A stretch of 64,000 nt of DNA from contig NC_092326.1 in assembly GCF_036785885.1 (NCBI RefSeq), positions 43,477,072-43,541,071 of the forward strand. Direction: 5' to 3'. Under the pieces are notes generated by a model, which was not told the origin of the DNA, searched no databases, and saw nothing but the letters and a program-made list of their open reading frames with translations. This stretch comes from Coffea arabica (lineage: Eukaryota; Streptophyta; Magnoliopsida; Gentianales; Rubiaceae). Below are positions 17,100-64,000 of the stretch, one piece after another. The translations under genes and the position numbers were made by a program. Position 1 is the stretch's first letter. Each line of letters starts with the position of its first letter.

Positions 17100-18180
17100 C
17101 TAATGAACACATGAAGAAACTTGAGGAAATCATTAAATGGAAAACACAAAAATAGAGAAAAAAAAAAAGCCTCCATAATAGCAAATAGGTTAAGAATACT
17201 TTTCATGCACACAAGAAGTGAGTTTAGACCAGCAGGTGACGACATCTCCACATGAACTATCAAAACTGCTCATGGTTCTTGATTCCACTCACAAAAGTAC
17301 TCATGGTTAAACGTTAAAAAGACACCGAAAACCTCAATTTTCATGCTCTTAATCAGCAAAAAGCTATGAGAATCGATTTTTTCTGCTTCTGTTGGAGCCA
17401 AAGCAAGAAATTTGCGTGAAAAAGAACTCAAAAACCATGCATCTTTAATTTAAGTATGCGTTGGCATTTAGAATCTAGTCAAATTTCATTATAAAAAACT
17501 TTTAAACTCTTCACACCGGCTATTTTTTGGTTTTTTAATCACCAAGATGTAATCACATGTTCCAACATTAGCAGGACCGACTTTTCTTCGTGGTAACCAC
17601 AAATGACGGATAGGTAATTCGACCAGTTTGAACCTCAAATTTTAGAACCCAAAATCCAATTCAAATAATAATAATAAGAAACAAACCCTCATATACTCGA
17701 AAGAAAAATTCCACCAAAATCCTCGATCATCGCTCATGCCCAGCTGAAATCATTATTCAAATTGGAAAACAAGACAAGAACGCCCCTTCCCCAAACTAAA
17801 TTTCAATTGAAAAAACAAGACTAAATCTACCAAATACTCATCAGAAACACAACAGAATGCTCCCTGACAACAACAAACAGGCCACAATCAATAGGCTCAA
17901 TGAGCTGTAAATTCTGATGACAAAATTACTTGCATTATTAAATAAATTCAACAAGAATCTCTTAAAAATGCGCGATTGCAGATAATGGCATTAAAAACAA
18001 ACAAAAAAATGGCAAAGAACATAAAAATACCTCAGAAAATCGGTGAATTTGGGAAGGGCTGAGAGGAGAGGGGTGTTTTGTAGGCAACAAGAAGAACTGA
18101 TCCTGGAAAAATGAATACTACCTCATTATTATTATTTACCCACCACTCCACCTCCTCCTATGTTTTACTTTGTAATCGTT
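17100..18180 (-). promoter_or_regulatory. UBC23 5' UTR exon and leader intron
   Basis: Minus-strand acceptor TTCATTAG directly precedes the ATG. A matching donor CTGAG|GTATTT lies at 18031/18030, giving a leader intron of about 930 bases. The non-coding exon runs from 18031 to roughly 18180. A TATATATATATA stretch at about 18208-18226, read on the minus strand, could serve as the TATA box. Long leader introns commonly enhance expression in plants. The transcription start is estimated, not observed. Confidence 0.55.
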
Positions 18181-19157
18181 TCGTTTTTTTTTTTTTTTTT
18201 TTCCCTTCTTATATATATATATAGATAGATGTTATTTATTTATTTTAGGCAAAGGGAAGGAGAAGACATTGGCCGAAGCCCAAAGTATATTCGATTACCA
18301 GAGAGACGGAGGAGCTAAAGAGCGGTCAGCCGGTGACTAATGTTAGGCGTCCACTTTAGGGACATTATTGTAATTACGTGCCGTACAAGTGCCGCTTTTC
18401 TTTTGCCTCAACTTTGTGTGCTTCTTTTCTTTTCCTTTCCTTTTTCCCCCACCTTGAATTTTCAAGGTTGTGTACTTGAATGGAACTTGCAAAGCAATGC
18501 CGTAATAAAAAGTTCCCTTCCTTTAAACCTTTTCTTTAACAAAATTTAAATTGAGATTTTCTTGATTCTCCTTCAAGCCCCTGATGGAATGTAACTTTCA
18601 TTGACCGTGCACGAGTCAAGCTCGAGCATCTTGATTTCATTAGCTGAGCAGTGAATTTCATATATTATTATGTTTGTAAGTCGTAATTTTAAAAAGTTAA
18701 TGAATATCGAGATCTAGTTCTAAATTCGTATGGGTTGGTTCGCGTATCAATAATGAGAAGCCTTGATTTAATGGTTAAGATCGATTCAAGTTTATGTCAG
18801 CACACGACATTATAGAGGTGGGAATTGCTCTTTTCTAATTTCTCTTGATTCAATTAGGCTGTCTCTTAATATAAGTTAAAATAGGAATATCGTAGGAGTT
18901 GATAATTAATCAAAAAGCAAAAGAAAAAAAAAGTCGATTGTGACTTATGGATAAATGTAGTTTTAGAGTTTAGATTTAGCCTATTCTTAAATTAATCAGT
19001 TAAAAATATAGGATGGATGAACTTGGTCTGATAATAAAAGTAAGGGACGACATCTGTAGGATGACTAATTTAATCAGGCTCAGTATAATATTATTAATAT
19101 TTCAGGGTCTAATTTATAGTGGAAGGTCCAAATCAACTCGAATAATAAAATTTTTGG

Positions 19158-20511
19158 GGGATAATTTTAGAAACCTCCCTTGAGGTTTCTAACCATTTCA
19201 CCGCTCTCTCTCTCCAGGTTTCGAAATTACACTACTCTTCCTTGAGGTTAATTATCTTGTAATATTTAGATTTAGGTTGCAAACGAATCGAACCGCTCGC
19301 GAAGGGTTTGAGTCAAAGTTCGACTCGAGTTTGATATTGCTCGAGCTCGAGAGAAGCTTGAGTTGGCCAAATCGAACTCAAACTCGAACTTGAGTTCAAA
19401 TTCAAAAATATTAAACTCATTAGCTCGCAAGTTGATACTCAAACTCGAGTATCTATATACATATATATATTATTTTTAATTTTACTAGTAAAATTACATA
19501 TATTTTCCTAATGTTTTATTATTTATTAAGAAAAATATTATTTTATTTATTTTCAAAAAATAAAATAATTATTTTTTATTTTTTCAAGCTCGACCGCGAG
19601 TTCGAGACGAATTGGCAGCTCATCGATCTTGAGTTCGAGTTCAAATTTGATAAAACTAAGTCAAGATTTGGCTCAATTAGGCTAAAACTTGTCTCGATTC
19701 AATTTGTTTGCAACCCTATTTAAATTCAATCAATAATTAAAAAATAATATTAGAAAAGAGAAGATAATATGAATGTATGATTCAATCATTGTCCCTCATC
19801 TACTATATGATTTAGTTAATTCAATACCAATCCACACATTAAAGAAAAACACTTAAAATTTTGCTATTTATTATTAAGGATCAAATAACATATAGTATCA
19901 AAAAATAGTATATCATTTTATATTTTTTACTTAATATAAGATTCAAATTACTCTTTTCAGTTACATACCTATTGTCAAATACGATCAACAAAAATAATAC
20001 AAAAAATTTGTAACTAAAATATTACAGAGAACAAACTTTAACATCACAAATTTTCTTGTTAATATATTAAAGTTAGTTGCTGAAATTTTTATGATATTAA
20101 AATTCATTTTTTGTAATATTTTGGTTACAGATTTTTTTGATTATTTGTTGTTGACCTTGTTTGACAATGGGTTTGAAACTAAAAAGAATAATTTGGGTCT
20201 TATATTAAATGAAATATATAGAATGATATACTATATTTGATGCCATATGTAATTTAATCCTTGATGATATGCAAATTTTAGTGTTTTTTTTAATGTTTGG
20301 ATTGATATTAGATTAATTAAATAATTTAATATATGAGAGGTAATAGTGAAATCACATTATCTTCTCTCTCTTAATATTACTTTTTAATTGGTGGTTGGAC
20401 CTAGATATTACAAGATAATAAATTTCAAGGGAGGTTAATGCAAATTTCAAAATCTGAATGGAGGCCAGTGAAATAGCTATAAACCTTAGGGGAGGTTTCT
20501 CAAATTATCCC
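19158..20511. mobile_element. Long fold-back Mutator-like element (with a nested hAT-like MITE)
   Basis: Ends GGGATAATTTTAGAAACC and the reverse complement of GGTTTCTCAAATTATCCC are inverted, and the inverted similarity runs to a centre near 20069, so nearly the whole element is two arms of about 450 bases. It is flanked by a perfect 9 bp duplication AATTTTTGG (19149-19157 and 20512-20520), diagnostic of MULEs. The left arm is interrupted by another element at 19273-19718. No transposase frame is present. A related shorter copy lies at 23662-24405. Confidence 0.85.
19273..19718. mobile_element. hAT-like MITE nested in the MULE arm, diverged
   Basis: Ends TAGGTTGCAAACGAATCGAA and the reverse complement of TTGTTTGCAACCCTA are inverted, with CGAG/CTCG-rich subterminal repeats. 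Flanking 8-mers TTTAGATT and TTTAAATT differ by one base, consistent with an 8 bp hAT target duplication that has since mutated. It belongs to the same family as 28181-28542 but is more degenerate. A 70-codon frame at 19511-19723 is repeat sequence only. Confidence 0.75.
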
Positions 20512-20679
20512 AATTTTTGGGACCAGAGTTAAAGTTAAAGGACCAAAATTGGTTCAGTAAAGAGCTGAAAGACTATTTGGTCAATTTGCCCAGAAGAGAC
20601 CATATAGATCTCGCGGCGTCCCTCCGACTGGTGCAGCGGCAAAGGGGTTGGTCCCAGTGCTGATCGGACTGAAGAGACG

Positions 20680-23162
20680 ATGATCGTTTGCGTTGCAGTC
20701 GTCGGCCACCAGGTACGCTGCCCATTCACCTTTCTGTAATGTTTTGGATCCTAATAAGACAATCTCGTTCGTTCTTTCATTTTCAATAAACACATCACAT
20801 GGCAAAGACGCAGCGGCCAACTGATGGCATTTCTTGATTTTCCGGCGGCGGGATTAGAATAATCCCTTATACATACAGAGCTTCACGGAAGCAGATGATG
20901 CCCTCAAGCTTCACCACATCGTCCACTGCTCCCTTGACGTCGTTGACGAAAGAGGTCCTCTTCCTCTTCCTCTTCCGGATCTTGCCTGGTGTTTTTGCTT
21001 CTTAATGACTACTTGGTTCTTTTAAGCGCTCCCGTTCAAGTAAATAACCTATATTAGCAGTAAATGCATTGATTTAATTGTTGTACTAATGAGATGGAAT
21101 CATTATATGCATAACTTTCAGTTACGAGCTAAGCAACACTTGTTGTAGTCTGAACTCATCTTCACTAGATAGAGTCTTCTGAATTTCTGATATTCTAAAC
21201 TATTATTTTGCTGAGCTCAACATATATACATTTCATACACGATTTCCACTGTTCGATTTGTTCGCTTATTTTTTCTTGTTTGGCGTTGCCTATTTATCTC
21301 ATTTCTTGAATAAAGGTTTAGCTCACTCAACCTGCTGTACTGTACTGCTAAATTTTGTATAATTAAGATAGTCAGAAGCCATGCCAATTTGCATATGTAT
21401 TTCGCTTAGCCAGCTTCATTTAAAAACATTTAACTAGAGAGATTAATATTCACGGCACTAGATCTTTATCGATTGGAGTTACTTGCTGGAGACAAATGCA
21501 AATGCTTTGTTCACTTCTCAGTCTGGAATGAACGCTTCTGTCAATCTTTTCTGGTTACTATCTCTCCTTCTGCTGGTGCAATATCCTGTTCCAAAGGCTG
21601 ATTATTTCTAGCAGTGTCACATTTCTTTAGTGTGCTTATATCTCTGCCTGCGTGTACTAGGAGAGAGTAACAGAATGAGTGGTTACTGTGCGAGTTATTG
21701 CTGATTCCATATGTTTGTATATGATGTATTCTTCTGTATTGATTGATAGTACAGAATGTGGCGTTTCAGTTATTGGGCATTTAGCATGTGAAGTCTAGCA
21801 TGATTAGTTTTTTGATGAGAACTATTACATGTGGTTCTGCAACTGTGTCCCATGGCATAAGTTCCTTTATGTTTCTCCCTGTTTTTGTGTAAACATCGCT
21901 GCTCCTTCCTTTTTTTGGGCCCCCAGGGGGGGGGGATATATTAGCAATAATTTAATGATATGATCATGTTCTTGCTCTGATTGTGGATAAAGGCTTCATT
22001 AGAAAGAATTATGGTAGGCGTAATTCTTGTCTGAAGCATCTCAACTTAATCTGTATCTATGTCTGATGATTGAGAAATTCTGGATCACCAAAAATCATGT
22101 TTACACATTTTCTTTGGCATTTTTTGACAAAGAACACTTTAAAAGTTCATCCTCATTCTCTTGCAGTGAACAATCCGAAAAAATCTGGCCCCACTCTGAA
22201 TGAGACATTTCTTGGTATGCTGTATCCGACTGAAAACTACAAAGTGTAAGAGTATTTTGATGCTTAAATATCCAATCCACTCATATAGGAGTGGGAACTT
22301 ACAAGATTATTACATAGCTGTTGTTGCTCTATTTGGTCTTTACATCTCTCTGCATATTTGCAGGTATGGTTATCTGACTAACACAAAGGTCAAGTTTATA
22401 TTGGTTACAACAGATCTGGACGTCCGGGATGCAGATGTTAGAAACGTAAGTTTTTTTTCTCTGCAAATGTGAAAATTTTGATTCCATAGCTTATTGAGCC
22501 ATGATCTATGTAATAATGGGCTTAAACACTGGTAATATCCCCTCCATTTTCCCCCTCTTCCTCCCCAGCACTGCTGGGTCAAGTTTCACACTCAATGCTT
22601 TGAACATTCACAAATCTCGCATCATTGAGTTGCAAGAATAATATGAGCACAAATGATGATGTTGAAAGCTGCAATGAGGTTGTATCGCCCCTCTCTCTGG
22701 CTGTAGTTGGTTTTCAATGAACTCGTGCCTGTGCCGTGACAAATTAATTGGTGCTACTGAACTTCAAGTCTTGATGCAGATCATGTCCCTCCCTCTCCCC
22801 CCCCCCCCCTCTTCTCTTCAAACAACAAAAAAAAAGAAATCTTTTTGATGACTTCGTCTTGCACAACTTCTTCTTCATCGTCATCATCTTTTCTTTCAAT
22901 AAACTCGTGATAGTAGAAATTCAATAATGGTACTAGTTTGGTTAAGTTTTAATGGTTTGTAGGGTGTCTTTAACTTCTGGACATCTCAGCTGACTTTGAT
23001 TTATTTGATGTAAATTACTAGTTCTTCAGGAGGTTCCATGCTGCTTATGTTGATGCAGTATCAAACCCGTTTCATGTCCCTGGGAAGAAAATAACCTCAA
23101 GGGTTTTTGCAGATAGAGTCAGCAACATTGTCAAGTCTTTTGGATTTAGTCCAACTGGGTGA
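20680..23162 (+). CDS. TRAPPC2L: TRAPPC2L, trafficking protein particle complex subunit 2-like
   Basis: Five exons (20680-20712, 20858-20954, 22167-22245, 22364-22445, 23022-23162) join in frame to 143 residues, matching the small size of the family. The protein begins MIVCVAVVGHQNNPLYIQSF and contains LHHIVHCSLDVVDERVNNPK, LYPTENYKVYGYLTNTKVKF and FFRRFHAAYVDAVSNPF, all characteristic of the plant orthologue. It adopts a longin/SNARE-like fold and is a core subunit of TRAPP complexes that tether vesicles and activate Rab GTPases at the Golgi. All introns are GT-AG; intron 2 is about 1.2 kb. An identical second copy lies inverted at 54507-56989. Confidence 0.94.
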
Positions 23163-24774
23163 TGATGCACAAATGTGGATATAGTCACCTGTAGCAGCAG
23201 CTCTCTGTTATTTGCGAGGCCATTTACCAGTAATTCCAGCTTGGATGTGGGTGGGTTAATTTTGCTGGTCAATTGATTTCAGCTGTATGCCTGGAAAGGA
23301 AATGTAAAGAATTCTAGTCCTTATTTTGTAGCAATAAAATAGGTGTGGACCTTTATACTATACTCTACATATTCTCTTTTTAATTCTCCTCGACATAATA
23401 CTTTGACTTGCATATCATTCTGTCGAAGACTTTGACTAGAAATCTAAGGACTTAATTTTTGTCTTTTGAAGCTGTTTCGACCGACCATGAGTAGCAGAGA
23501 TACTAAAAATCAAATGAGACGCCAAATCTGAAAAACTGAAAACTTGATCATAATACTGGAACTCCAGGAGTATCATAAGATGAATGTCAGATCTGAATAA
23601 AATTGCTTCAAGTTTGAAGAAAAAAATTTAGATCTAACTTCAAGATTTGGTGATTTTTAGAGGGATAATTTTAGAAACCTCCCGTAAGGTTTTTAACAAT
23701 TTCAACTAGTTCTTTTGAGATTTGAAAAATTACGTATACCTCTCTCTCGAGGTTACTATTTTGGTTACAAAAACTATTTAATGGTCAAATTTTTGAATGA
23801 ATAATCCAAAATGCCCTCATGAAATTGTGAGGTTCAGTTTACCTTCTTACATAATTATTTAAAAATTAGGGAACATGAACAAAATCTCAAATTCATTTTC
23901 AACGCTCATCTCTGCTATTTTAAACCTTTAATATTACCACATTTCAAATTAGTACTATTATCACCATGACCATTATCACCATGACACCATCAACCCCTAA
24001 ATTCTAAAACCTCAATCGAAATTAAAAAGAAATATGCACTGTTAAACTTAAAAAATTTCAATAACCACATCAATATAACATCCTATCTCTCAAATATTAG
24101 AGTATCCTATCCTTTTTAATCCCAATTTATATCTTCTTCTATTCATCTCCAAATCATCCAAACAAGCCTAAAATTAATTTTTAATATATTATTATTGTGT
24201 TTAGGACATGATCGGTTATTCCACGAGTGAATTTTATTTTTATTTTCATTAAATATCCAATTGTGTGATTCGTTCATATGAACAAGATTAGCAGTGTATT
24301 GTTTAATTGCATGGAAAAATATTAATATGTTAAGGCTATTATGATCATTTTGGTGTAATATTGAAAATCTCAAGGAAACCTCAGGGAGGTTCCTGAAATT
24401 ATCCCACTTATAAAATCTAACAAATCTCTAATCTCACCCACTGAAACAGAGACCAAAAATTTCCATAATCGAGTATAGGCCTGCTGTTGCAAGTAAATAA
24501 AAAGCAATCGAATGAGCCAAAATCAATGGTTAGCTGGGGTAAGTACGAATACCCTGAGGAGATTAATTAACAGGTTTATGCAATGTAAGTTAAATGATGA
24601 AACAACAATAACTGAAACTAAAAGAAAAATCTCACGTCCCGACGTAAAAGAATGGCAAAAGCTATTCAAAACAAGTAGTACAAGCAGTAGCAGTTGAGTT
24701 TCAAGGAAAAAGGAGCAGTTCCGACAGGGAAATCATCTTGCATGGTCCCGAGATTGCCTATCACGGGCCTTCCA
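23163..24774. other. Intergenic DNA between TRAPPC2L and RPN3 (convergent 3' ends)
   Basis: It contains the TRAPPC2L 3' UTR (to about 23350), a MULE-type element (23662-24405) and the RPN3 3' UTR (about 24480-24774). The genes converge. Nothing else was recognised. Confidence 0.5.
23662..24405. mobile_element. Mutator-like MITE, second copy of the GGGATAATTT family
   Basis: Ends GGGATAATTTTAGAAACCTCCC (split in two here: GGGATAATTTTAG and AAACCTCCC) and the reverse complement of GAGGTTCCTGAAATTATCCC match those of 19158-20511. The 744-base element has diverged arms. Flanking 9-mers ATTTTTAGA and ACTTATAAA agree at only 6 of 9 positions, so the duplication is decayed and the insertion probably older than the longer copy. 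Confidence 0.7.
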
Positions 24775-26345
24775 TTAGAACTCGTCATCATCCTCTTCGG
24801 CTATGTGCTTAGCGAGCTCTTGCTCTTGCTGTTGTCTTTCTCTCCTCTTCTCAGCACATTCTTTTTCCTTGTGTGAATTTGGTGGAAATCGGAGGGCACG
24901 AACCGCCTCGTTATGCATATTAAGACAGAAAGCAATTCTTGAATTAAAAGCAATTTGAGGCTCATTAGTAGAGTAAATGTCCCCAGTCTCCTTGGACACC
25001 ATCCATCCATTAGCATGATCCAGTGTAGCATCAATGGCCCCATCCCGAATTGCTTTAGCCACAATGCTCTCAGCATCAGCAACAGGGTTTGCTGAATCCA
25101 ACCGCAGCTTTTTAGCAACATCAGCCAGTGAAATCCTGGAATATGAGATACTAATGTTACGTAGCCCTGTCCTAATGACATTATGCCGCAATCTCACAAT
25201 CAAGTTGTTGGTTCGGTCTGAGCTGAAAGTGCTTGAGAACTTCTCAGCAACTGTCCTAAACAACTCCAGATCTCCAATTCGGACAGCCTGAATCATTGTA
25301 ACCAACGAAGAATCAATTTCTAAAGCCAAAATCAGGAATATATTAACATGCTAATTGAATCCTTTTTATTTACGATTGCTTGGGATTCTCATCGCTCTGC
25401 AGTTGTGAAAGATTCTTCTGGTATGAGGGGGCTGCAAACTGCCAGTGTCCTCAATTCATGACCAAGCAGAATAAAAGGTCTCAAACAATTAGCCTACTAC
25501 TTTAAATATTGCAATTCCGTCCTACAATTAACTAATTTCTCCACTGCTACACTACTATTGTTCACATGCAATAAGTATCATTAGCCCCTCTCGTGTGTTT
25601 CCCACACAACGAAATCTTTAAATCATGCTACCTTAAGGTTCCAAATTTTACATACCTTTAAAAGTTCCAAATTTTATGAACCAAAAAGATAAGAAACCAG
25701 ACAACACAAACTCACATTTGTAAGCTCAAAGTATGGTCTCAAAGCTTTCTCCATTCCTTTTTGCATAAAAACAGTCCTCTCAGGGATCTCTCCAAGCAGT
25801 AAACGTACTATCACAGCCCATTTAGTGCATTGAACTCGGAAACCGAGAGCCGCAACAGGGGCTTTCCTTGCAGCTTGCAGAAGGGATTCTTTAGCATCAG
25901 TATATTCCAATTGAATTGTCCTGATCTTTCCAAGGTAAAAGAGGTAGCGACAAAACTGGAATAAAGAAATCGAGGATGAGGCATAGAAGATTGCAGATTC
26001 TAAGCATCCATATTATGCATCAAACAGATTAGACCAGATGATCAAATAATAGAATGTAGTTTTTTTTTTATGTACTACTATGGTGCATTACCCCTTTGAT
26101 TAGTGCTGCCATGAACATTTTCTGACTCAATCAGAACAAACCTTTTTTTTCATTCCCATTTGATTAGTCTAGTAGCAAAGCTTCTACATTTGAAATACCC
26201 TTATTGAGTACCAAAATTGTAAAATATAAAATGTCTTCCATTAGACCATTCAAACCTTCTACAGCAATCTAATAGCCCAACTACCATCTCAACCACCATA
26301 CCAAAGTAACATAGTGTGAATCGGAACCCATTCAACGAGAGCCCC

Positions 26346-26376
<31 letters not shown>

Positions 26377-29300
26377 AAAACCAAAAGAAGAAGAAGAAAA
26401 ACGATTAAACGGAGACATCCTTCCAGCAGTAAAATTAAAAAAATTAATCAAGTTTCTTTGGGTCTGCCAAATCGATTAAGAGAACAAATTGAATTTCCTC
26501 CCACTTTATTACTAAACTTTTCCTTGAAAGAAAAAAAACTAAAATAGTGTTTGTCGTCAAGTCAAAGTTCCATTCCAGGTTCTTTTAGTTTGAATAGCCT
26601 TGGAAACCGTCTTTTTCCATCACTTTGCCATTTAATTATTGTCCCAATTCATTCTAATATAATTTCAGCAGATATTTTTCCAATCAATATATCTACAGAT
26701 TGCTTCTTGTTCCTCTAACAAAACTTGCCCTCAATCATAGGAGTTATTCATGAAAGAGTTTTTGTTTTTCTTCTTTCTCTTTCCAGCCAGAGAAGTTGTT
26801 CAACAATGGCTGTGGAGTGGTTGAGAAGCGGAAGGGGTTCAATGTAATTTGTCCAAGTCTGAGGGGAGTAAAAGTAATTAACCCAAATATACTCCTTCAT
26901 TTGATCCTTTGATTCTAATACTTATTGGTGCAGAAAAGTCAACAAGTTCCAGACAAGATAAGATAAAATATCCCAAGCACATGGACGGATTCTGCACGAG
27001 AGAAAACTAAGATAAAAAGAATATTGGATTTACCTGCTGATTTGAATGAGCTTCAAAACGGGGTGCCTTGGATCTCAGCTTCTCTGCTTGGTCATATAAA
27101 TTATAATGGAGGTAATTTCGAAGCAACAGATTGAGAAGTGTTTCCTGTATCAACTAAGCTGTTAAGTATGATGAAGGCTGCCACTAAGACAACAAACTAG
27201 CTACTGTTTTAGGTTACAAACCTGACCCAGCTCATCACGGCGAAGTGTTGCAATCCGATGCAGAGCAAGCAGGTTTCTGCGATTTAAACTTTCTGTTAGG
27301 CAAAGTTTTGGAAGGAAAGGGTACTGAAGAAAAATATGCCCACAAATACACAGACAGATGCAAACGCACACAGAAATGGAAAATAAGCGTCTGAATTATT
27401 TCTGAACCATTTATTCCATGCATCATATATTCATATGAAATGGAAAAATGAGCACCAGCTGCCAAATGCTCATGAACCAATTATATCATGCATCATACCA
27501 AGGGGATGAAGTATATGCAATAGCAAGTAAAAATCATAACTCACCCACGAATTTCAGCAAGATCACCAGTAAGTTCATAGCTCAAAGAGTAATAGAAATA
27601 AAGCCTGGATGTTAGAACGTCAAGAGTTCGCTTATTGAAGTTCTTTAAGCGTCCAATGCCTGCTGAGGCACATGCTTTAGCCTGTAGAACAACAGGGAGA
27701 TAGTCTTTTACATTAAGAACTATATCGGAATATACAAAAATGTGGGGTGACAGAAAGTATACCTCATTGTATCTTTTTTGATCAATGAGAAATATGAGGA
27801 CAAGCAAGCAAGAATAAATCTCAAGCTCTGGCAGAGAATGCTTTGTAGGGGCTTGGGTTGCAGATGTTGCAGTATCAACTTCCATTTCATGTTCATCATC
27901 CTATAAGAAGCATTTAAGTTTGTCAAGCTGCATAATTATTAACAGCACTGCATTTGTTTGACAATACAATGGAAAAAACATGATATTTGCACTAAACGGA
28001 AGGCAATGAAGACATACCAATTACGAGTCCATTTTGTTGGATAGAAAATGTCTGACAGACATATAATGGATACGATTTTGTACAAAGAAAATCATCTCTC
28101 AATTCTTTTCGTATTACTTACATGATAATTCAAAAGCCATTTCCACAATTCCCACAATAGGATTAACGCACCACCAATACTAGGGGTGCAAACGAGCCGA
28201 GCCGAGTCGAGCTTTGGCCTTATCGAGTCGAGCCTTAACTTAATTTCATCGAACTCGAACTCGAGCTCGAGCTCGACGAGCTGGTAATTTTCAAGCTCGA
28301 GCTCTAAAAAAATAAAAAATAATTATTTTATTTTTAAAAAAATAAATAAAATAATATATTTTCTTAATAAATAATAAAATATTAAGGATATTTATGTAAT
28401 TTTACTATTAAAAATAAAAAAAATAAATATATATATATTCGAGCTCGCGAGCCTAACGAGCTTAATGTTTTGAGCTCGAGCTCGATATTGATCGAGCTCG
28501 AGTCGAGCTCGAATCGAGCGGCTCGATTCGTTTGCACCCCTAACCAATACCACTAGAAAACCTTTAATTAAATAATTCCCATTTCCAGTTGCTTCATCAA
28601 CTGATGTCACTTTCGTTGCTGCAATATTGCAAGTAATATTCATGGAGACACTACAGCAACAATTGTAATGGCAGTAAATGTTATCTAAGAAGGTAGCAAA
28701 ATAACAAAAAATCGGAGGTATAACAAGCAAATTAAAGGCAGGGTGCAGGAATTTGAGTTTCAGCATATAAATGCAAGCACTAATAGCAGTAGGGCCAATA
28801 TTCCTCTACTGTTGTCTCACTGGATGGAAGCAGGAGCAGCATATGGGCATAATAACTTTAAATTTTACAAGGCTTTATACTTTCAAGTTGATGAAAAAGA
28901 TGAAACCAAGGATGTTACCATGTACAATGAGTACAGGAGTTACTTTTTCACCCTTAATATGAAACTAATTGACACTTTGCACTTCCAACAACTACTTTGC
29001 ACACAGCACTCTATTCCACTCTTCCCCAACTATTAATAGACCATTGAACAAAATATTTTTAGAGCTTGAAGAATGAAATCAAATTTAAAAGTGACGGAAT
29101 TTGTCCTAAAGGCGATTAAAAGAGAAGATATAATGACAAGCTGAAGTGGTGGGATAACTAGAGTCTCCAGCTTCCAATTAAAGCTCATATTAACAAACGA
29201 TGAAACCAACACTCATGTCCATGTCCTATTTTCATAAACCATTTAGACCCTTTTTTGCATGTGATCACACAAATCTTGTCCACAGAATCAATCAGCCCTG

Positions 29301-50700: not shown

Positions 50701-51294
50701 TATTTTATCTTATCTTGTCTGGAACTTGTTGACTTTTCTGCACCAATAAGTATTAGAATCAAAGGATCAAATGAAGGAGTATATTTGGGTTAATTACTTT
50801 TACTCCCCTCAGACTTGGACAAATTACATTGAACCCCTTCCGCTTCTCAACCACTCCACAGCCATTGTTGAACAACTTCTCTGGCTGGAAAGAGAAAGAA
50901 GAAAAACAAAAACTCTTTCATGAATAACTCCTATGATTGAGGGCAAGTTTTGTTAGAGGAACAAGAAGCAATCTGTAGATATATTGATTGGAAAAATATC
51001 TGCTGAAATTATATTAGAATGAATTGGGACAATAATTAAATGGCAAAGTGATGGAAAAAGACGGTTTCCAAGGCTATTCAAACTAAAAGAACCTGGAATG
51101 GAACTTTGACTTGACGACAAACACTATTTTAGTTTTTTTTCTTTCAAGGAAAAGTTTAGTAATAAAGTGGGAGGAAATTCAATTTGTTCTCTTAATCGAT
51201 TTGGCAGACCCAAAGAAACTTGATTAATTTTTTTAATTTTACTGCTGGAAGGATGTCTCCGTTTAATCGTTTTTCTTCTTCTTCTTTTGGTTTT

Positions 51295-51325
<31 letters not shown>

Positions 51326-52894
51326 GGCTCTCGTTGAATGGGTTCCGATTCACACTATGTTACTTTGGTATGGTGGTTGAGATGGTAGTTGGGCTATTAG
51401 ATTGCTGTAGAAGGTTTGAATGGTCTAATGGAAGACATTTTATATTTTACAATTTTGGTACTCAATAAGGGTATTTCAAATGTAGAAGCTTTGCTACTAG
51501 ACTAATCAAATGGGAATGAAAAAAAAGGTTTGTTCTGATTGAGTCAGAAAATGTTCATGGCAGCACTAATCAAAGGGGTAATGCACCATAGTAGTACATA
51601 AAAAAAAAACTACATTCTATTATTTGATCATCTGGTCTAATCTGTTTGATGCATAATATGGATGCTTAGAATCTGCAATCTTCTATGCCTCATCCTCGAT
51701 TTCTTTATTCCAGTTTTGTCGCTACCTCTTTTACCTTGGAAAGATCAGGACAATTCAATTGGAATATACTGATGCTAAAGAATCCCTTCTGCAAGCTGCA
51801 AGGAAAGCCCCTGTTGCGGCTCTCGGTTTCCGAGTTCAATGCACTAAATGGGCTGTGATAGTACGTTTACTGCTTGGAGAGATCCCTGAGAGGACTGTTT
51901 TTATGCAAAAAGGAATGGAGAAAGCTTTGAGACCATACTTTGAGCTTACAAATGTGAGTTTGTGTTGTCTGGTTTCTTATCTTTTTGGTTCATAAAATTT
52001 GGAACTTTTAAAGGTATGTAAAATTTGGAACCTTAAGGTAGCATGATTTAAAGATTTCGTTGTGTGGGAAACACACGAGAGGGGCTAATGATACTTATTG
52101 CATGTGAACAATAGTAGTGTAGCAGTGGAGAAATTAGTTAATTGTAGGACGGAATTGCAATATTTAAAGTAGTAGGCTAATTGTTTGAGACCTTTTATTC
52201 TGCTTGGTCATGAATTGAGGACACTGGCAGTTTGCAGCCCCCTCATACCAGAAGAATCTTTCACAACTGCAGAGCGATGAGAATCCCAAGCAATCGTAAA
52301 TAAAAAGGATTCAATTAGCATGTTAATATATTCCTGATTTTGGCTTTAGAAATTGATTCTTCGTTGGTTACAATGATTCAGGCTGTCCGAATTGGAGATC
52401 TGGAGTTGTTTAGGACAGTTGCTGAGAAGTTCTCAAGCACTTTCAGCTCAGACCGAACCAACAACTTGATTGTGAGATTGCGGCATAATGTCATTAGGAC
52501 AGGGCTACGTAACATTAGTATCTCATATTCCAGGATTTCACTGGCTGATGTTGCTAAAAAGCTGCGGTTGGATTCAGCAAACCCTGTTGCTGATGCTGAG
52601 AGCATTGTGGCTAAAGCAATTCGGGATGGGGCCATTGATGCTACACTGGATCATGCTAATGGATGGATGGTGTCCAAGGAGACTGGGGACATTTACTCTA
52701 CTAATGAGCCTCAAATTGCTTTTAATTCAAGAATTGCTTTCTGTCTTAATATGCATAACGAGGCGGTTCGTGCCCTCCGATTTCCACCAAATTCACACAA
52801 GGAAAAAGAATGTGCTGAGAAGAGGAGAGAAAGACAACAGCAAGAGCAAGAGCTCGCTAAGCACATAGCCGAAGAGGATGATGACGAGTTCTAA
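47707..52894 (+). CDS. RPN3: RPN3 (PSMD3), 26S proteasome lid subunit, copy 2
   Basis: Eight exons: 47707-47785, 47890-48080, 49771-49908, 49990-50126, 50395-50449, 50527-50637, 51714-51953 and 52382-52894; 487 residues. The coding sequence is the same as copy 1 as far as compared, with the PCI domain and acidic tail intact. In this orientation it lies about 2.9 kb downstream of the intact CC1-like gene in the same direction, which is the natural neighbourhood if arm B' is the collinear copy. The promoter and leader are also duplicated, so both copies should be expressible if the duplication is real. Confidence 0.95.
49129..49490. mobile_element. hAT-like MITE in RPN3 intron 2, copy in arm B'
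   Basis: Reverse-complement counterpart of 28181-28542, with the same 8 bp duplication. Its presence in both arms shows that the insertion came before the arms were copied. Confidence 0.85.
51305..51327. repeat. Poly-G tract, 23 bases
   Basis: Counterpart of the 25-base C tract at 26342-26366, shorter by two. It lies in RPN3 intron 6. Confidence 0.95.
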
Positions 52895-54506
52895 TGGAAG
52901 GCCCGTGATAGGCAATCTCGGGACCATGCAAGATGATTTCCCTGTCGGAACTGCTCCTTTTTCCTTGAAACTCAACTGCTACTGCTTGTACTACTTGTTT
53001 TGAATAGCTTTTGCCATTCTTTTACGTCGGGACGTGAGATTTTTCTTTTAGTTTCAGTTATTGTTGTTTCATCATTTAACTTACATTGCATAAACCTGTT
53101 AATTAATCTCCTCAGGGTATTCGTACTTACCCCAGCTAACCATTGATTTTGGCTCATTCGATTGCTTTTTATTTACTTGCAACAGCAGGCCTATACTCGA
53201 TTATGGAAATTTTTGGTCTCTGTTTCAGTGGGTGAGATTAGAGATTTGTTAGATTTTATAAGTGGGATAATTTCAGGAACCTCCCTGAGGTTTCCTTGAG
53301 ATTTTCAATATTACACCAAAATGATCATAATAGCCTTAACATATTAATATTTTTCCATGCAATTAAACAATACACTGCTAATCTTGTTCATATGAACGAA
53401 TCACACAATTGGATATTTAATGAAAATAAAAATAAAATTCACTCGTGGAATAACCGATCATGTCCTAAACACAATAATAATATATTAAAAATTAATTTTA
53501 GGCTTGTTTGGATGATTTGGAGATGAATAGAAGAAGATATAAATTGGGATTAAAAAGGATAGGATACTCTAATATTTGAGAGATAGGATGTTATATTGAT
53601 GTGGTTATTGAAATTTTTTAAGTTTAACAGTGCATATTTCTTTTTAATTTCGATTGAGGTTTTAGAATTTAGGGGTTGATGGTGTCATGGTGATAATGGT
53701 CATGGTGATAATAGTACTAATTTGAAATGTGGTAATATTAAAGGTTTAAAATAGCAGAGATGAGCGTTGAAAATGAATTTGAGATTTTGTTCATGTTCCC
53801 TAATTTTTAAATAATTATGTAAGAAGGTAAACTGAACCTCACAATTTCATGAGGGCATTTTGGATTATTCATTCAAAAATTTGACCATTAAATAGTTTTT
53901 GTAACCAAAATAGTAACCTCGAGAGAGAGGTATACGTAATTTTTCAAATCTCAAAAGAACTAGTTGAAATTGTTAAAAACCTTACGGGAGGTTTCTAAAA
54001 TTATCCCTCTAAAAATCACCAAATCTTGAAGTTAGATCTAAATTTTTTTCTTCAAACTTGAAGCAATTTTATTCAGATCTGACATTCATCTTATGATACT
54101 CCTGGAGTTCCAGTATTATGATCAAGTTTTCAGTTTTTCAGATTTGGCGTCTCATTTGATTTTTAGTATCTCTGCTACTCATGGTCGGTCGAAACAGCTT
54201 CAAAAGACAAAAATTAAGTCCTTAGATTTCTAGTCAAAGTCTTCGACAGAATGATATGCAAGTCAAAGTATTATGTCGAGGAGAATTAAAAAGAGAATAT
54301 GTAGAGTATAGTATAAAGGTCCACACCTATTTTATTGCTACAAAATAAGGACTAGAATTCTTTACATTTCCTTTCCAGGCATACAGCTGAAATCAATTGA
54401 CCAGCAAAATTAACCCACCCACATCCAAGCTGGAATTACTGGTAAATGGCCTCGCAAATAACAGAGAGCTGCTGCTACAGGTGACTATATCCACATTTGT
54501 GCATCA
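52895..54506. other. Intergenic DNA between RPN3 copy 2 and TRAPPC2L copy 2
   Basis: Mirror of 23163-24774, with 3' UTRs of both convergent genes around a MULE-type element. Confidence 0.5.
53264..54007. mobile_element. Mutator-like MITE, arm B' counterpart of 23662-24405
   Basis: Identified by position and identical ends (GGGATAATTTCAGGAACC at the left, GAGGTTTCTAAAATTATCCC at the right). Confidence 0.7.
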
Positions 54507-56989
54507 TCACCCAGTTGGACTAAATCCAAAAGACTTGACAATGTTGCTGACTCTATCTGCAAAAACCCTTGAGGTTATTTTCTTCCCAGGGACATGAAAC
54601 GGGTTTGATACTGCATCAACATAAGCAGCATGGAACCTCCTGAAGAACTAGTAATTTACATCAAATAAATCAAAGTCAGCTGAGATGTCCAGAAGTTAAA
54701 GACACCCTACAAACCATTAAAACTTAACCAAACTAGTACCATTATTGAATTTCTACTATCACGAGTTTATTGAAAGAAAAGATGATGACGATGAAGAAGA
54801 AGTTGTGCAAGACGAAGTCATCAAAAAGATTTCTTTTTTTTTGTTGTTTGAAGAGAAGAGGGGGGGGGGGGGAGAGGGAGGGACATGATCTGCATCAAGA
54901 CTTGAAGTTCAGTAGCACCAATTAATTTGTCACGGCACAGGCACGAGTTCATTGAAAACCAACTACAGCCAGAGAGAGGGGCGATACAACCTCATTGCAG
55001 CTTTCAACATCATCATTTGTGCTCATATTATTCTTGCAACTCAATGATGCGAGATTTGTGAATGTTCAAAGCATTGAGTGTGAAACTTGACCCAGCAGTG
55101 CTGGGGAGGAAGAGGGGGAAAATGGAGGGGATATTACCAGTGTTTAAGCCCATTATTACATAGATCATGGCTCAATAAGCTATGGAATCAAAATTTTCAC
55201 ATTTGCAGAGAAAAAAAACTTACGTTTCTAACATCTGCATCCCGGACGTCCAGATCTGTTGTAACCAATATAAACTTGACCTTTGTGTTAGTCAGATAAC
55301 CATACCTGCAAATATGCAGAGAGATGTAAAGACCAAATAGAGCAACAACAGCTATGTAATAATCTTGTAAGTTCCCACTCCTATATGAGTGGATTGGATA
55401 TTTAAGCATCAAAATACTCTTACACTTTGTAGTTTTCAGTCGGATACAGCATACCAAGAAATGTCTCATTCAGAGTGGGGCCAGATTTTTTCGGATTGTT
55501 CACTGCAAGAGAATGAGGATGAACTTTTAAAGTGTTCTTTGTCAAAAAATGCCAAAGAAAATGTGTAAACATGATTTTTGGTGATCCAGAATTTCTCAAT
55601 CATCAGACATAGATACAGATTAAGTTGAGATGCTTCAGACAAGAATTACGCCTACCATAATTCTTTCTAATGAAGCCTTTATCCACAATCAGAGCAAGAA
55701 CATGATCATATCATTAAATTATTGCTAATATATCCCCCCCCCCTGGGGGCCCAAAAAAAGGAAGGAGCAGCGATGTTTACACAAAAACAGGGAGAAACAT
55801 AAAGGAACTTATGCCATGGGACACAGTTGCAGAACCACATGTAATAGTTCTCATCAAAAAACTAATCATGCTAGACTTCACATGCTAAATGCCCAATAAC
55901 TGAAACGCCACATTCTGTACTATCAATCAATACAGAAGAATACATCATATACAAACATATGGAATCAGCAATAACTCGCACAGTAACCACTCATTCTGTT
56001 ACTCTCTCCTAGTACACGCAGGCAGAGATATAAGCACACTAAAGAAATGTGACACTGCTAGAAATAATCAGCCTTTGGAACAGGATATTGCACCAGCAGA
56101 AGGAGAGATAGTAACCAGAAAAGATTGACAGAAGCGTTCATTCCAGACTGAGAAGTGAACAAAGCATTTGCATTTGTCTCCAGCAAGTAACTCCAATCGA
56201 TAAAGATCTAGTGCCGTGAATATTAATCTCTCTAGTTAAATGTTTTTAAATGAAGCTGGCTAAGCGAAATACATATGCAAATTGGCATGGCTTCTGACTA
56301 TCTTAATTATACAAAATTTAGCAGTACAGTACAGCAGGTTGAGTGAGCTAAACCTTTATTCAAGAAATGAGATAAATAGGCAACGCCAAACAAGAAAAAA
56401 TAAGCGAACAAATCGAACAGTGGAAATCGTGTATGAAATGTATATATGTTGAGCTCAGCAAAATAATAGTTTAGAATATCAGAAATTCAGAAGACTCTAT
56501 CTAGTGAAGATGAGTTCAGACTACAACAAGTGTTGCTTAGCTCGTAACTGAAAGTTATGCATATAATGATTCCATCTCATTAGTACAACAATTAAATCAA
56601 TGCATTTACTGCTAATATAGGTTATTTACTTGAACGGGAGCGCTTAAAAGAACCAAGTAGTCATTAAGAAGCAAAAACACCAGGCAAGATCCGGAAGAGG
56701 AAGAGGAAGAGGACCTCTTTCGTCAACGACGTCAAGGGAGCAGTGGACGATGTGGTGAAGCTTGAGGGCATCATCTGCTTCCGTGAAGCTCTGTATGTAT
56801 AAGGGATTATTCTAATCCCGCCGCCGGAAAATCAAGAAATGCCATCAGTTGGCCGCTGCGTCTTTGCCATGTGATGTGTTTATTGAAAATGAAAGAACGA
56901 ACGAGATTGTCTTATTAGGATCCAAAACATTACAGAAAGGTGAATGGGCAGCGTACCTGGTGGCCGACGACTGCAACGCAAACGATCAT
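54507..56989 (-). CDS. TRAPPC2L: TRAPPC2L, copy 2
   Basis: Exons 56989-56957, 56811-56715, 55502-55424, 55305-55224 and 54647-54507 encode the same 143-residue protein as 20680-23162. All splice sites and the start and stop codons are kept. It converges with RPN3 copy 2, as in the other arm. Confidence 0.93.
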
Positions 56990-57157
56990 CGTCTCTTCAG
57001 TCCGATCAGCACTGGGACCAACCCCTTTGCCGCTGCACCAGTCGGAGGGACGCCGCGAGATCTATATGGTCTCTTCTGGGCAAATTGACCAAATAGTCTT
57101 TCAGCTCTTTACTGAACCAATTTTGGTCCTTTAACTTTAACTCTGGTCCCAAAAATT

Positions 57158-58511
57158 GGGATAATTTGAGAAACCTCCCCTAAGGTTTATAGCTATTTCA
57201 CTGGCCTCCATTCAGATTTTGAAATTTGCATTAACCTCCCTTGAAATTTATTATCTTGTAATATCTAGGTCCAACCACCAATTAAAAAGTAATATTAAGA
57301 GAGAGAAGATAATGTGATTTCACTATTACCTCTCATATATTAAATTATTTAATTAATCTAATATCAATCCAAACATTAAAAAAAACACTAAAATTTGCAT
57401 ATCATCAAGGATTAAATTACATATGGCATCAAATATAGTATATCATTCTATATATTTCATTTAATATAAGACCCAAATTATTCTTTTTAGTTTCAAACCC
57501 ATTGTCAAACAAGGTCAACAACAAATAATCAAAAAAATCTGTAACCAAAATATTACAAAAAATGAATTTTAATATCATAAAAATTTCAGCAACTAACTTT
57601 AATATATTAACAAGAAAATTTGTGATGTTAAAGTTTGTTCTCTGTAATATTTTAGTTACAAATTTTTTGTATTATTTTTGTTGATCGTATTTGACAATAG
57701 GTATGTAACTGAAAAGAGTAATTTGAATCTTATATTAAGTAAAAAATATAAAATGATATACTATTTTTTGATACTATATGTTATTTGATCCTTAATAATA
57801 AATAGCAAAATTTTAAGTGTTTTTCTTTAATGTGTGGATTGGTATTGAATTAACTAAATCATATAGTAGATGAGGGACAATGATTGAATCATACATTCAT
57901 ATTATCTTCTCTTTTCTAATATTATTTTTTAATTATTGATTGAATTTAAATAGGGTTGCAAACAAATTGAATCGAGACAAGTTTTAGCCTAATTGAGCCA
58001 AATCTTGACTTAGTTTTATCAAATTTGAACTCGAACTCAAGATCGATGAGCTGCCAATTCGTCTCGAACTCGCGGTCGAGCTTGAAAAAATAAAAAATAA
58101 TTATTTTATTTTTTGAAAATAAATAAAATAATATTTTTCTTAATAAATAATAAAACATTAGGAAAATATATGTAATTTTACTAGTAAAATTAAAAATAAT
58201 ATATATATGTATATAGATACTCGAGTTTGAGTATCAACTTGCGAGCTAATGAGTTTAATATTTTTGAATTTGAACTCAAGTTCGAGTTTGAGTTCGATTT
58301 GGCCAACTCAAGCTTCTCTCGAGCTCGAGCAATATCAAACTCGAGTCGAACTTTGACTCAAACCCTTCGCGAGCGGTTCGATTCGTTTGCAACCTAAATC
58401 TAAATATTACAAGATAATTAACCTCAAGGAAGAGTAGTGTAATTTCGAAACCTGGAGAGAGAGAGCGGTGAAATGGTTAGAAACCTCAAGGGAGGTTTCT
58501 AAAATTATCCC
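57158..58511. mobile_element. Long fold-back Mutator-like element, arm B' copy
   Basis: Counterpart of 19158-20511, with the same 9 bp flanks and the same nested insertion. Confidence 0.85.
57951..58396. mobile_element. Nested hAT-like MITE, arm B' copy
   Basis: Counterpart of 19273-19718, lying within the fold-back element. Confidence 0.75.
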
Positions 58512-59489
58512 CCAAAAATTTTATTATTCGAGTTGATTTGGACCTTCCACTATAAATTAGACCCTGAAATATTAATAATATTATACTGAGCCTGATTAAA
58601 TTAGTCATCCTACAGATGTCGTCCCTTACTTTTATTATCAGACCAAGTTCATCCATCCTATATTTTTAACTGATTAATTTAAGAATAGGCTAAATCTAAA
58701 CTCTAAAACTACATTTATCCATAAGTCACAATCGACTTTTTTTTTCTTTTGCTTTTTGATTAATTATCAACTCCTACGATATTCCTATTTTAACTTATAT
58801 TAAGAGACAGCCTAATTGAATCAAGAGAAATTAGAAAAGAGCAATTCCCACCTCTATAATGTCGTGTGCTGACATAAACTTGAATCGATCTTAACCATTA
58901 AATCAAGGCTTCTCATTATTGATACGCGAACCAACCCATACGAATTTAGAACTAGATCTCGATATTCATTAACTTTTTAAAATTACGACTTACAAACATA
59001 ATAATATATGAAATTCACTGCTCAGCTAATGAAATCAAGATGCTCGAGCTTGACTCGTGCACGGTCAATGAAAGTTACATTCCATCAGGGGCTTGAAGGA
59101 GAATCAAGAAAATCTCAATTTAAATTTTGTTAAAGAAAAGGTTTAAAGGAAGGGAACTTTTTATTACGGCATTGCTTTGCAAGTTCCATTCAAGTACACA
59201 ACCTTGAAAATTCAAGGTGGGGGAAAAAGGAAAGGAAAAGAAAAGAAGCACACAAAGTTGAGGCAAAAGAAAAGCGGCACTTGTACGGCACGTAATTACA
59301 ATAATGTCCCTAAAGTGGACGCCTAACATTAGTCACCGGCTGACCGCTCTTTAGCTCCTCCGTCTCTCTGGTAATCGAATATACTTTGGGCTTCGGCCAA
59401 TGTCTTCTCCTTCCCTTTGCCTAAAATAAATAAATAACATCTATCTATATATATATATAAGAAGGGAAAAAAAAAAAAAAAAAAACGAA

Positions 59490-59638
59490 ACGATTACAAA
59501 GTAAAACATAGGAGGAGGTGGAGTGGTGGGTAAATAATAATAATGAGGTAGTATTCATTTTTCCAGGATCAGTTCTTCTTGTTGCCTACAAAACACCCCT
59601 CTCCTCTCAGCCCTTCCCAAATTCACCGATTTTCTGAG
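59490..59638 (+). pseudogene. UBC23 promoter and 5' UTR exon fragment without coding exons
   Basis: The non-coding first exon ends at the donor CTGAG|GTATTT (59638/59639). The leader intron follows for 622 bases and is cut at 60260, before the acceptor and the ATG. Transcripts from this promoter would run into arm D', antisense to exon 1 of the CC1-like gene. The exon start is an estimate. Confidence 0.6.
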
Positions 59639-60260
59639 GTATTTTTATGTTCTTTGCCATTTTTTTGTTTGTTTTTAATGCCATTATCTGCAATCGCGCA
59701 TTTTTAAGAGATTCTTGTTGAATTTATTTAATAATGCAAGTAATTTTGTCATCAGAATTTACAGCTCATTGAGCCTATTGATTGTGGCCTGTTTGTTGTT
59801 GTCAGGGAGCATTCTGTTGTGTTTCTGATGAGTATTTGGTAGATTTAGTCTTGTTTTTTCAATTGAAATTTAGTTTGGGGAAGGGGCGTTCTTGTCTTGT
59901 TTTCCAATTTGAATAATGATTTCAGCTGGGCATGAGCGATGATCGAGGATTTTGGTGGAATTTTTCTTTCGAGTATATGAGGGTTTGTTTCTTATTATTA
60001 TTATTTGAATTGGATTTTGGGTTCTAAAATTTGAGGTTCAAACTGGTCGAATTACCTATCCGTCATTTGTGGTTACCACGAAGAAAAGTCGGTCCTGCTA
60101 ATGTTGGAACATGTGATTACATCTTGGTGATTAAAAAACCAAAAAATAGCCGGTGTGAAGAGTTTAAAAGTTTTTTATAATGAAATTTGACTAGATTCTA
60201 AATGCCAACGCATACTTAAATTAAAGATGCATGGTTTTTGAGTTCTTTTTCACGCAAATT
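59639..60260 (+). other. Truncated UBC23 leader intron
   Basis: It matches 17409-18030 in reverse complement. The intact leader intron continues to 17100 in the other copy, whereas here it stops at CACGCAAATT and changes to arm D'. Confidence 0.85.
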
Positions 60261-60810
60261 GTTAACTACCAGAACAAACCTAAATTAAACTCTGTATACA
60301 GAGATCAGCTTGGTTAAATGCCAAAAGAAAATTGTCCAACTCTTTTTAAGGAAACAGGTTACATTTAAAGATACCGACCCTGATCTTAGTTACAAGAGAC
60401 AAAGCCAAACCAATTCAACTTCTGTTAGCCAAAAGCACAGGTGCGATACAGGTCAGCTTAGTGCAAGCAAATTATTTGCTTAAAAACTACCAAGAACCAG
60501 TGTGATTGTTAACTCCAGAATAAAAAAAACATACTTAAGAAAGTAGAATATTTTGTAAGCAGAATATAAATCTTGAAGCCAACTGACAACTGATTTACGA
60601 TAAGCAAATATTTTGTAGATTATCTTGTGTACGTTGTAAATCTGCCCAAGGGCCCTAACAACTTACAACTATGCAAATGCATGACTCTGCATTTCTACCT
60701 ATTAGCTAGCTCAGAACAAGGAAATATAACTTTTTCATTCAAGTCAGGCAGAAAATCATCAAAGTTCCCCTAGAATTATAACAAAACCACTGAGGGAATC
60801 CGCGCATTAC

Positions 60811-61394
60811 CTGCTTTCTCGGTCCCCTTCTTGTAACTGGCTCTGTCTTTCCCTTCCTCCATACTCCCTATCACCATTCTTCTCCCTGTCTCGGCTCTCC
60901 TCTCTCTCTCCATCAACCAGATGCCTTTCTGAATGACTTGTACGATTCGACAGGTCTTGATTTCTCTCCCTACCTCTCTGTCTTTCATCTTCGCGGCCAC
61001 GACCTCTCCTTCCGCTATCTTCGCCTTTGTTGGTATCTCTTTCTCTGTCGCTTTCTTTGATTTTGTCCCCATCTCTCTCCTTCTTGCTGCTCTTATGCTT
61101 GTCCCTGTCCTTGGATTCTCGGCTACTCCTGTATCTCTCCCTCCCACTCCTCTCTCTATCTCTTGAAGGGGAATGGAGACGGTAGCTTGAGCTCCTCTCC
61201 TCCTCGTCTTCATGGAACTCTTCCCGCGTCCTTGAACGCTTAACGCGTTGATGATGATGATGATCACTTTTATGCATTGGCCTCTTAATTGGGTCTTGGC
61301 CTCCGCCAGATTTATCCACTTGATCACCGCCATTGCTCGTCTCAGGATTTTCCGCTGTTTTCTCCGAGTAATCATCAAACTCGTCAAATTCCAT
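60811..61394 (-). pseudogene. Isolated exon 1 of the CC1-like gene, 5' fragment
   Basis: The exon (MEFDEF through the RS-rich region to the donor at 60811) is identical to 36772-37355. Only 550 bases of intron 1 follow before the junction with UBC23 leader intron sequence, so no downstream exon is available. Reading past the donor gives just a few residues. Its promoter appears intact, so a short or read-through transcript is possible. Confidence 0.85.
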
Positions 61395-63782
61395 TTGGGA
61401 AAAACCCTTCAAAACCCAAACAATCTGCTTCCTCAAGAGATGACAGAAATATACTACTAACTATACAGTAGTGTATTTTTTTTCCAAGACAACAACACAT
61501 TTAATCCATTAGTTTCGATTGCTCGACAAGGCTATCAAATACTACTACAAGGCACAACCGAGTCTGGAGAATTTGAAAATCCATACGACAGATTAAAAAA
61601 AAGGGAATTTCACCATTTTCGTCCATAAACTTTTACACTAAAATCAATTTCATCCTTTATAATTTTTTTAACCAATTTAATCCTTCCATTATTTTGAAGT
61701 CTCTGATCTAGGACTTTTACAACGGCAACACCACATTTTACATATTTCGTATAATCGATAATGGGTATATTTGTCATTTTAAATTAGATTCTTTAATTTA
61801 TACGGAACTTTGACTATAGTTCTTCTTCTTCGAAAAATTTCACCGAAAATTTCATCTGAATTTATTGGAAACTTACCCAGACTCTCTCTCACACACTCAA
61901 ATCAAGAAACAAAATCCATGAGAAAAAAATAGAAAACCAAAAACCAAAATGAAAATTGAAGCAAAATTTGAAGAATAAATTTCTCTCATACACAATTTTA
62001 AATCTACTCACCGGCAAACTCATTTTGTTTGGTTCTGATTTTTTTATCCTCCATTCATGGCTGCTAGCAAAGACACCATCAATTATCACTACCGATCCAT
62101 TTTCGTCCTTCAACTCTCTCATGACTAGTCATCATTCATTTTTCACCATGAGTTTCATATGAACTCATAAGAATCTCTCCAAAATTCTTGCGGAATTTTT
62201 CAGTTGTAGAGTTGTATACTCCATTTTCTTTCCAAGAAAAGAAGAAAAGAACCAAAAACAGAAAACCAACAAATACATTGAGGGAATCTGAGGAGCAAGA
62301 GGAGCTCGCTGCTGCCATCACCATTGCCGGAGTTGCTATCTTCTTGCTAGAACCACCACTACTTATAAATCATCATGAAGGAAGCAGTGTGAGGTTTCCA
62401 TAATCCTTTTTTTGTTTTAATCTCTAGGTTGAGATGATTTTTTTGACTGTTGAAATTGCTATCTTCTTCCCGTTTGCTTTGTTTTGTAGATGAATGAAAT
62501 GGGACAGTGATGCTGCAATTTTGTTGTTTCTTTTTCACCTTTTCTGCCTGAATAAGGCTTGACAAGATATTTTTCGACTCAGCCATAATCAAATTTCATA
62601 CGAAATATTCAATTTTTGTGATGACCTTAATCTTTTTGACAAAATGCCCAAATGAAATAAGTTTGTAAGTAGACCTGAGAGTATGTTTGAGAGCCATTTC
62701 TCCTTTAAATTTTGCTTCACTTTCCTGAGAGTATATTTGTAAGCACATGACATGTGTCTTTTGTATATGTTTAATTCATTTAATTTACTACTCAATTAAA
62801 TGAGTTAAACTTGGGGTATTGAAATGAAGATTAAATTTTGCACTCATAACGTTTATCTCACTCTAACAATATGAGTTGAAACTTTTAATTGTCTGCATTC
62901 TTTCGTTTGGGCCTTTTTGATTTCTACGGTTTCAGAGTCTTTTGGTGTTCCATAGTCTTCAATTTCAGATGAAAAGCATAACCTCCATAAGGTCTCGAAA
63001 GCTTTCAGACACAAGTTGCTTTCTCAGAGAAAAAGTGCTCACAAATAGTATTAATCAACTGGTGCTCACGGTGCTCTTTGATAAAAGGAATTTTCTATTT
63101 GTTTTAGTTGTTTTATTTGCATCCAAAACACAAAATAAATATTGCATGGAAAGTGAATCACCAGTACTTTGAAGCTTGATGAAAAATTTGTGGATAGATA
63201 ATTATATTTTGATAGTTTGATTTATATAAAGTTTCTTAATAATGAAAAGTGCTTATTTAATGGATCAAGTGGATGATATGTAAAATAATTGTTGGGCTCA
63301 GTAATTTGGGATGTGAAGAAAATATTTCGTATCTCTTCATTTTGAATTACTAGCCTATATCCATGACAGGTAGTTTATTTTCATGATTTTAAATTTTAAC
63401 AAATAATATCTTGAGAATAAAAGAAGTGTAAAATTAGATTTCAGAATCTTTTGTTTAAACTGGTTTTATATGACTTTGTAATCTTATTTTTTTTTATTGT
63501 CCCTGATGATAGATAATTTAATTAGAGTTTGAGATAATTGCTAACTTGCTAGGCATGGAACTAGACATATCATTATTATTTGGCTGAAGGAGTTGATAAA
63601 GTTTCTTTAGATATTATATTTTAACTAGTAGAAATGATTGCAATTGTCAAAGGAGTGTAGTTAGTGGTGGAAGTTAGCATTGAGGCTTTCAATCTAGAGT
63701 GTCACTTGATAAAGTATTATTACAAAATTTAATTTTAATTAAGAAGACATTTTTGCTATCAAACTAATTGTTGTTTTGAATT
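61395..63782. other. Upstream region of the CC1-like gene, arm D' copy
   Basis: Mirror of 34384-36771, without any recognised gene. Confidence 0.45.
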
Positions 63783-64000
63783 TGTATATGTAGATCTGGA
63801 AATATGGCATTCATATTTTTATCTAAAATTACTATTTGTATTCTAGAGCTATTTGGTGAGATAATGTTCTCACCTATTTGTAATGCTATTAGGCATGATT
63901 TAAATGAGTGGATTAACTTGCTTTTTCTCTTAAAAAGAAAGAAAAATGTGCACGTTTATATGTTTTTATTGATGTTGAAAACTGTAACATGTTTTGGTGG
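63783..64000. other. Unmatched segment F beyond arm D'
   Basis: These 218 AT-rich bases occur once in the window. They sit where segment C would be expected if D' continued as D does. Nothing recognisable is seen. Confidence 0.5.

Follow-up and report, generated by a model that had tools for sequence, protein, structure and literature searches.

Organization and gene content of the locus

The window (the whole stretch of DNA analyzed here, 64 kb) is made up of two contigs, 1-33465 and 33966-64000. Its segments follow one another in the order L, B, gap, C, D, E, B', D', and R, with a prime marking the inverted orientation (Table 1). A preliminary description of this DNA had given the order B-gap-C-D-E-B'-D' together with position sums for the paired segments, and self-BLAST confirmed both. 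Judging by its genes, we take the DNA to be that of a plant.

The UBC23-like gene of the left flank was recognized with Pfam through the tSH3-B_UBE2O (2.5e-47), SH3-B_UBE2O, and SH3-A_UBE2O families in the ORF at 15033-17099 and through UQ_con in the ORF at 12358-13134; its 688-aa ORF starts ~ 310 bases from the edge of B. A plastocyanin-like ORF and a FAM210-like ORF are also carried by this flank. At 2139-2594, two inverted arms of ~ 150 bases, 89-91% alike, lie close together and have the look of a small hairpin (MITE-like) element.

Segment B contains the pieces of a Sedlin-family gene, with Sedlin_N (7.6e-11) at 23019-23135 and a weaker piece at 20855-20953 under the curated cut-off, and an RPN3-like gene, whose ORF at 24778-25350 matches Rpn3_C (2.7e-26) and PCI (7e-20). 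TPR_PSMD3_N pieces were also found in the RPN3-like gene, the one at 29585-29788 being under the curated cut-off. Both the RPN3-like and the Sedlin-family gene, given in the preliminary description as doubled RPN3 and TRAPPC2L, are mirrored in B'; the Sedlin-family gene may be of either the TRAPPC2 or the TRAPPC2L type. Within B, 19455-19718 and 28181-28438 are inverted relative to each other and ~ 80% alike over 267 aligned positions; this pair, mirrored in B', looks like a small dispersed repeat.

The CC1/RBM39-like gene has its last part in B and its middle in E, where we found RBM39 matches at 39459-39575 and 40656-40742, RRM_1 at 40653-40742, and RBM39linker at 43979-44086 (below cut-off). 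The stretch encoding its third RRM is unbroken across the E/B' border (44205/44206), and the gap cuts its left copy. An Arg/Ser-rich ORF, putatively the first exon of this gene at its 5' end, lies in D at 36706-37359, where Pfam reported no family for it, and an orphan second copy is found in D'. The gene had been thought to survive across D-E-B', but only portions of RNA-binding domains were recognized, which does not bear out an intact copy. The coding pieces at 39366-40781 seem to deviate from the usual RNA-binding motifs; one piece reads LYVDNL, the usual motif being presumably LYVGNL. The CC1-like gene may be diverged or decaying.

The stretches next to D and D' carry less recognizable content. 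The first ~ 110 bases of C (33966-34075) seem to us to resemble, though differing at several points, the 16S-trnI spacer of plastids, and may thus go back to an old transfer of plastid DNA to the nucleus. Pattern searches with C covered viral, genome, and plasmid sequences: a 39-base pattern had no match in viral and genome contigs and none in plasmids, and a 21-base pattern had no viral match, its single hit in a Legionella genome being due to chance. R was rejected as the edge of a neighboring gene, given no Pfam match in the six frames of 63501-64000, no solved-structure match for one frame, and a length (214 bases) that is too short. Neither tRNA genes nor Rfam matches at the gathering score were found in the window.

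Table 1 Segments and genes of the 64-kb window.
Feature	Position	Strand	Remarks
L, left flank	1-17408		
UBC23/UBE2O-like E2 ubiquitin-conjugating gene	12355-17099	-	In left flank; seen once; Pfam
B, left copy	17409-33465	+	Ends on the right with its contig, at the N gap
Sedlin-family (TRAPPC2/TRAPPC2L type) gene pieces	20855-23135	+	In B, mirrored in B'
RPN3/PSMD3-like proteasome gene	24778-29788	-	In B, mirrored in B'
N gap between contigs	33466-33965		500 N
C	33966-34383		Start of right contig; adjoins D; unlike R
D	34384-37905	+	
E, single-copy core	37906-44205	+	6,300 bases
RBM39-like third RRM coding stretch	44149-44247	+	phmmer to 4ru2_A, E 1.8e-05
B', inverted copy of B	44206-60260	-	
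B'/D', closed novel junction	60260..60261		Without N
D', inverted copy of D	60261-63782	-	
R, outer neighbor of D'	63783-64000		Cut by window end

Identity of the copies

Aligned in inverted orientation by self-BLAST, B and B' show 0 substitutions over 16,055 bases. Their sole difference is 2 bases in a poly-C tract, with 25 C at 26342-26366 and 23 at 51305-51327, and this accounts for the two position sums (77669 and 77671) of B. D and D' (inverted) are identical at all 3,522 of 3,522 bases, showing that the limits previously proposed for D (position sum 98166) are exact; BLAST extends the pair to 34381/63786, for which it needs a gap and gains three bases. B and D together are thus free of substitutions in 19,577 compared bases (16,055 + 3,522). 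No second copy of E was found among the listed self-matches of more than 100 bases in the window, and E may be duplicated, partly or wholly, behind the N gap.

Chance is excluded as the source of the inverted copies, because, when the window was freed of N and shuffled 100 times by two-base units, the longest inverted self-match was 56 bases, and it was 67 bases in a 20-shuffle control from which matches of at least 400 were discarded. If the duplication is real, its age is less than ~ 10,900 generations at an assumed mutation rate of 7e-9 per base per generation and less than ~ 51,000 generations at 1.5e-9 (95% bounds). For two haplotypes at 0.05% allelic difference, the probability of no substitution in 19,577 bases is 6e-5, which speaks against B and B' jointly being two haplotypes; zero substitutions in D/D' alone (3,522 bases) says much less.

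Segment edges and ancestral order

On its right, B extends to the final base of the left contig, where the 500-N gap begins, and this edge falls within the CC1-like (RBM39-like) coding stretch. Because B ends at a contig end, this edge is not an observed breakpoint: the B/E "breakpoint" is simply where the assembly stopped, mid-gene, and any true breakpoint would be hidden by the gap.

The left edge of B (17408/17409) and the D/E border (37905/37906) meet at 60260/60261 as B'/D', between the UBC23 upstream region and the interior of the CC1-like gene. This join is blunt, as neither side has a base in common with the native neighbor of the other, and no inserted bases or microhomology were found at 60260/60261. 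Its sequence is present once in the window, where the L/E junction (17408 joined to 37906) has 0 occurrences. The D/D' pair and the B'/D' join lie inside a single contig, uninterrupted by N. A second junction of a dupINVdup would fall in the gap/C stretch, and B'/D' itself is present in the assembled sequence.

The outer edge of D is bordered by C in one copy and by R in the other, and comparing C (415 bases) with R (214 bases) gave only short chance matches. Either one of the two is foreign to D, or C and R are its neighbors on two haplotypes.

By convention, near-neighbor locus numbers in Arabidopsis denote near-neighbor genes. We favor L-B-E'-D' as the ancestral order and B'/D' as the derived join, because the RBM39-like coding sequence, interrupted by the gap in the left copy, is continuous over 44205/44206 in the right contig, and because UBC23 and the CC1-like splicing factor have near-neighbor Arabidopsis locus numbers, At2g16920 and At2g16940, respectively, according to passages of PMC4641371 and PMC5873924. 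On the left contig, the UBC23-like and CC1-like genes, whose orthology was judged from their domains, lie ~ 16 kb apart. Coding continuity and the Arabidopsis locus numbers thus support the order B, E', D' from which the preliminary description had started.

Origin of the inverted copies and comparison with known cases

The best explanation of the locus is a false duplication in the assembly, which we hold to be somewhat probable and likelier than a real rearrangement. With more assurance, we consider that the duplications are probably false in one way or another, whether by plain assembly error or by a stitched heterozygous inversion; B and D would then be single-copy in the plant. In the case of plain assembly error, two contigs that overlap would have been built from one locus (left flank-B-E'-D'-outer flank). 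Of these, the left one would pass through B and halt in the CC1-like gene, and the right one would hold B, E, and D, flipped through a false join at 60260/60261 that could stem from read chimerism, a mistaken assembly path, or an error in gap-filling. At scaffolding, the two would have been placed next to each other, separated by a nominal gap of 500 N, and the overlap left untrimmed.

The length of homopolymers is error-prone, and false duplication is favored because only such a length differs, with 0 substitutions in 19,577 bases. It is also favored because B stops exactly at the gap, in the middle of a coding sequence that continues in the right contig, because the gene order suits an uninterrupted left flank-B-E'-D' locus, and because the blunt B'/D' join connects the UBC23 upstream region with the interior of the CC1-like gene. 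A further reason is that passages of Ko et al. 2022 (PMC9516828) name, as a hallmark of false duplication, two copies that share a scaffold and are separated by an assembly gap.

Two points count against false duplication: C and R at the same edge of D require either one more false join or a difference by insertion, and zero substitutions are also compatible with a real, very young duplication. Moreover, D/D' and B'/D' lie within one contig, so that a flipped contig is insufficient and a second, in-contig error is needed. The artefact that the preliminary description offered as an alternative fits better than template switching, but a misoriented contig alone leaves B'/D' and D/D' unexplained.

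A real and very young DUP-INV-DUP, with B and D each present twice, inverted, around a single E, seems unlikely to us, though it is the strongest competitor of false duplication. The gap would represent a long inverted repeat that the assembler had not crossed, and C would be filler inserted where the first junction lies hidden. Assemblies tend to break at an inverted repeat of such length and near-perfect identity, the B'/D' join lies within one contig, and zero substitutions permit an age of up to ~ 11,000 (7e-9) or ~ 51,000 (1.5e-9) generations. On the other hand, the first junction is unobserved, the observed B'/D' junction is without microhomology, and the coincidence of the end of B with the gap, as well as C, require extra assumptions. 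The DUP-INV-DUP shape claimed earlier is borne out by the order and orientation of the duplicated segments; its first junction would lie in the gap/C stretch.

Template-switch copying usually leaves microhomology. Since blunt joins are also reported at inversion junctions, in passages of PMC7702065, the blunt B'/D' join tells mainly against template switching and less against the event being real. Replication template switching, previously put forward as the cause, finds no support in the sequence, as the closed junction is blunt, the gap conceals the B/E breakpoint, and C has to be explained separately. A DUP-INV-DUP of recent generations in this plant would rather have been joined bluntly by end-joining than by microhomology-guided copying, an event that we regard as rather improbable. 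The segment order does match the class that carries this name in passages of PMC5338099.

A third option, absent from the preliminary description, also fits, and we give it slightly less credence than a real DUP-INV-DUP: a plain balanced heterozygous inversion of B-E', with breakpoints 17408/17409 and 37905/37906, whose haplotypes were stitched into a chimeric contig. Stitching through the common 22.4-kb B-E segment would give D-E-B'-D' with D falsely doubled; the duplications would be false, the inversion real, and C and R the neighbors of D on the two haplotypes. No false join would be needed, all of L/B, D/E, E/B', B'/D', C/D, and D'/R being genuine. B'/D' is exactly one of the two junctions of such an inversion, and its bluntness suits end-joining. 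However, the predicted partner junction L/E (17408 to 37906) is absent from the window, D and D', supposedly two haplotypes, have 0 substitutions in 3,522 bases, and a haplotype difference exactly at the outer edge of D is an extra assumption.

Finally, a single 29-kb mobile element (34384-63782) with D/D' as its long terminal inverted repeats, suggested by inverted 3.5-kb ends around 22 kb, is extremely improbable and was rejected, as there is no target-site duplication at the exact ends 34384/63782, only 9 matches of 3-4 bases (chance level) with the ends shifted by up to 6 bases, B inside the element also stands outside it adjoining UBC23, and D includes part of a cellular gene.

Raw reads could tell the first three explanations apart by means of the six junction sequences seen here and the predicted L/E junction. 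If the structure is an artefact, the counts of RPN3-like and Sedlin-like genes are each too high by one, the annotation of a truncated CC1-like gene is false, and gene-family and inversion calls at the locus would be wrong. If it is real, the complex rearrangement would be very young, and one of its junctions could be read base by base; RPN3 (proteasome-lid) and Sedlin-family genes would be doubled whole, and the first part of a CC1-like splicing-factor gene would adjoin, as an orphan, the UBC23 upstream region. It would also provide, at base level, a plant case of a class otherwise found, in the literature searched, in human disease papers.

In the literature searched, no paper came up on inversion breakpoints of Arabidopsis that combine inverted duplications with microhomology. 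Inverted duplicates at both edges of the inverted segment are predicted for staggered-break inversions such as Drosophila O7 (PMC7584159), and the present locus is similar, except that its edges are not both observed and that a staggered overhang of 16 kb would be very long. The dupINVdup class was named in human structural-variant work (Collins et al. 2017, PMC5338099), where, in the passages concerned, it comprises two flanking duplicated segments and an inverted single-copy middle, as seen here. In contrast to the human cases in those passages, which rest on reads and dosage, the present structure is read from the assembled sequence, with one junction in an N gap and the unexplained C in between. 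As for the false duplications described in passages of Ko et al. 2022 (PMC9516828), our locus differs from them in that the copies are inverted and that no gap separates D from D', the second and smaller pair. It resembles them in having near-identical copies on one scaffold, a gap between B and B', and whole genes that would be falsely doubled.
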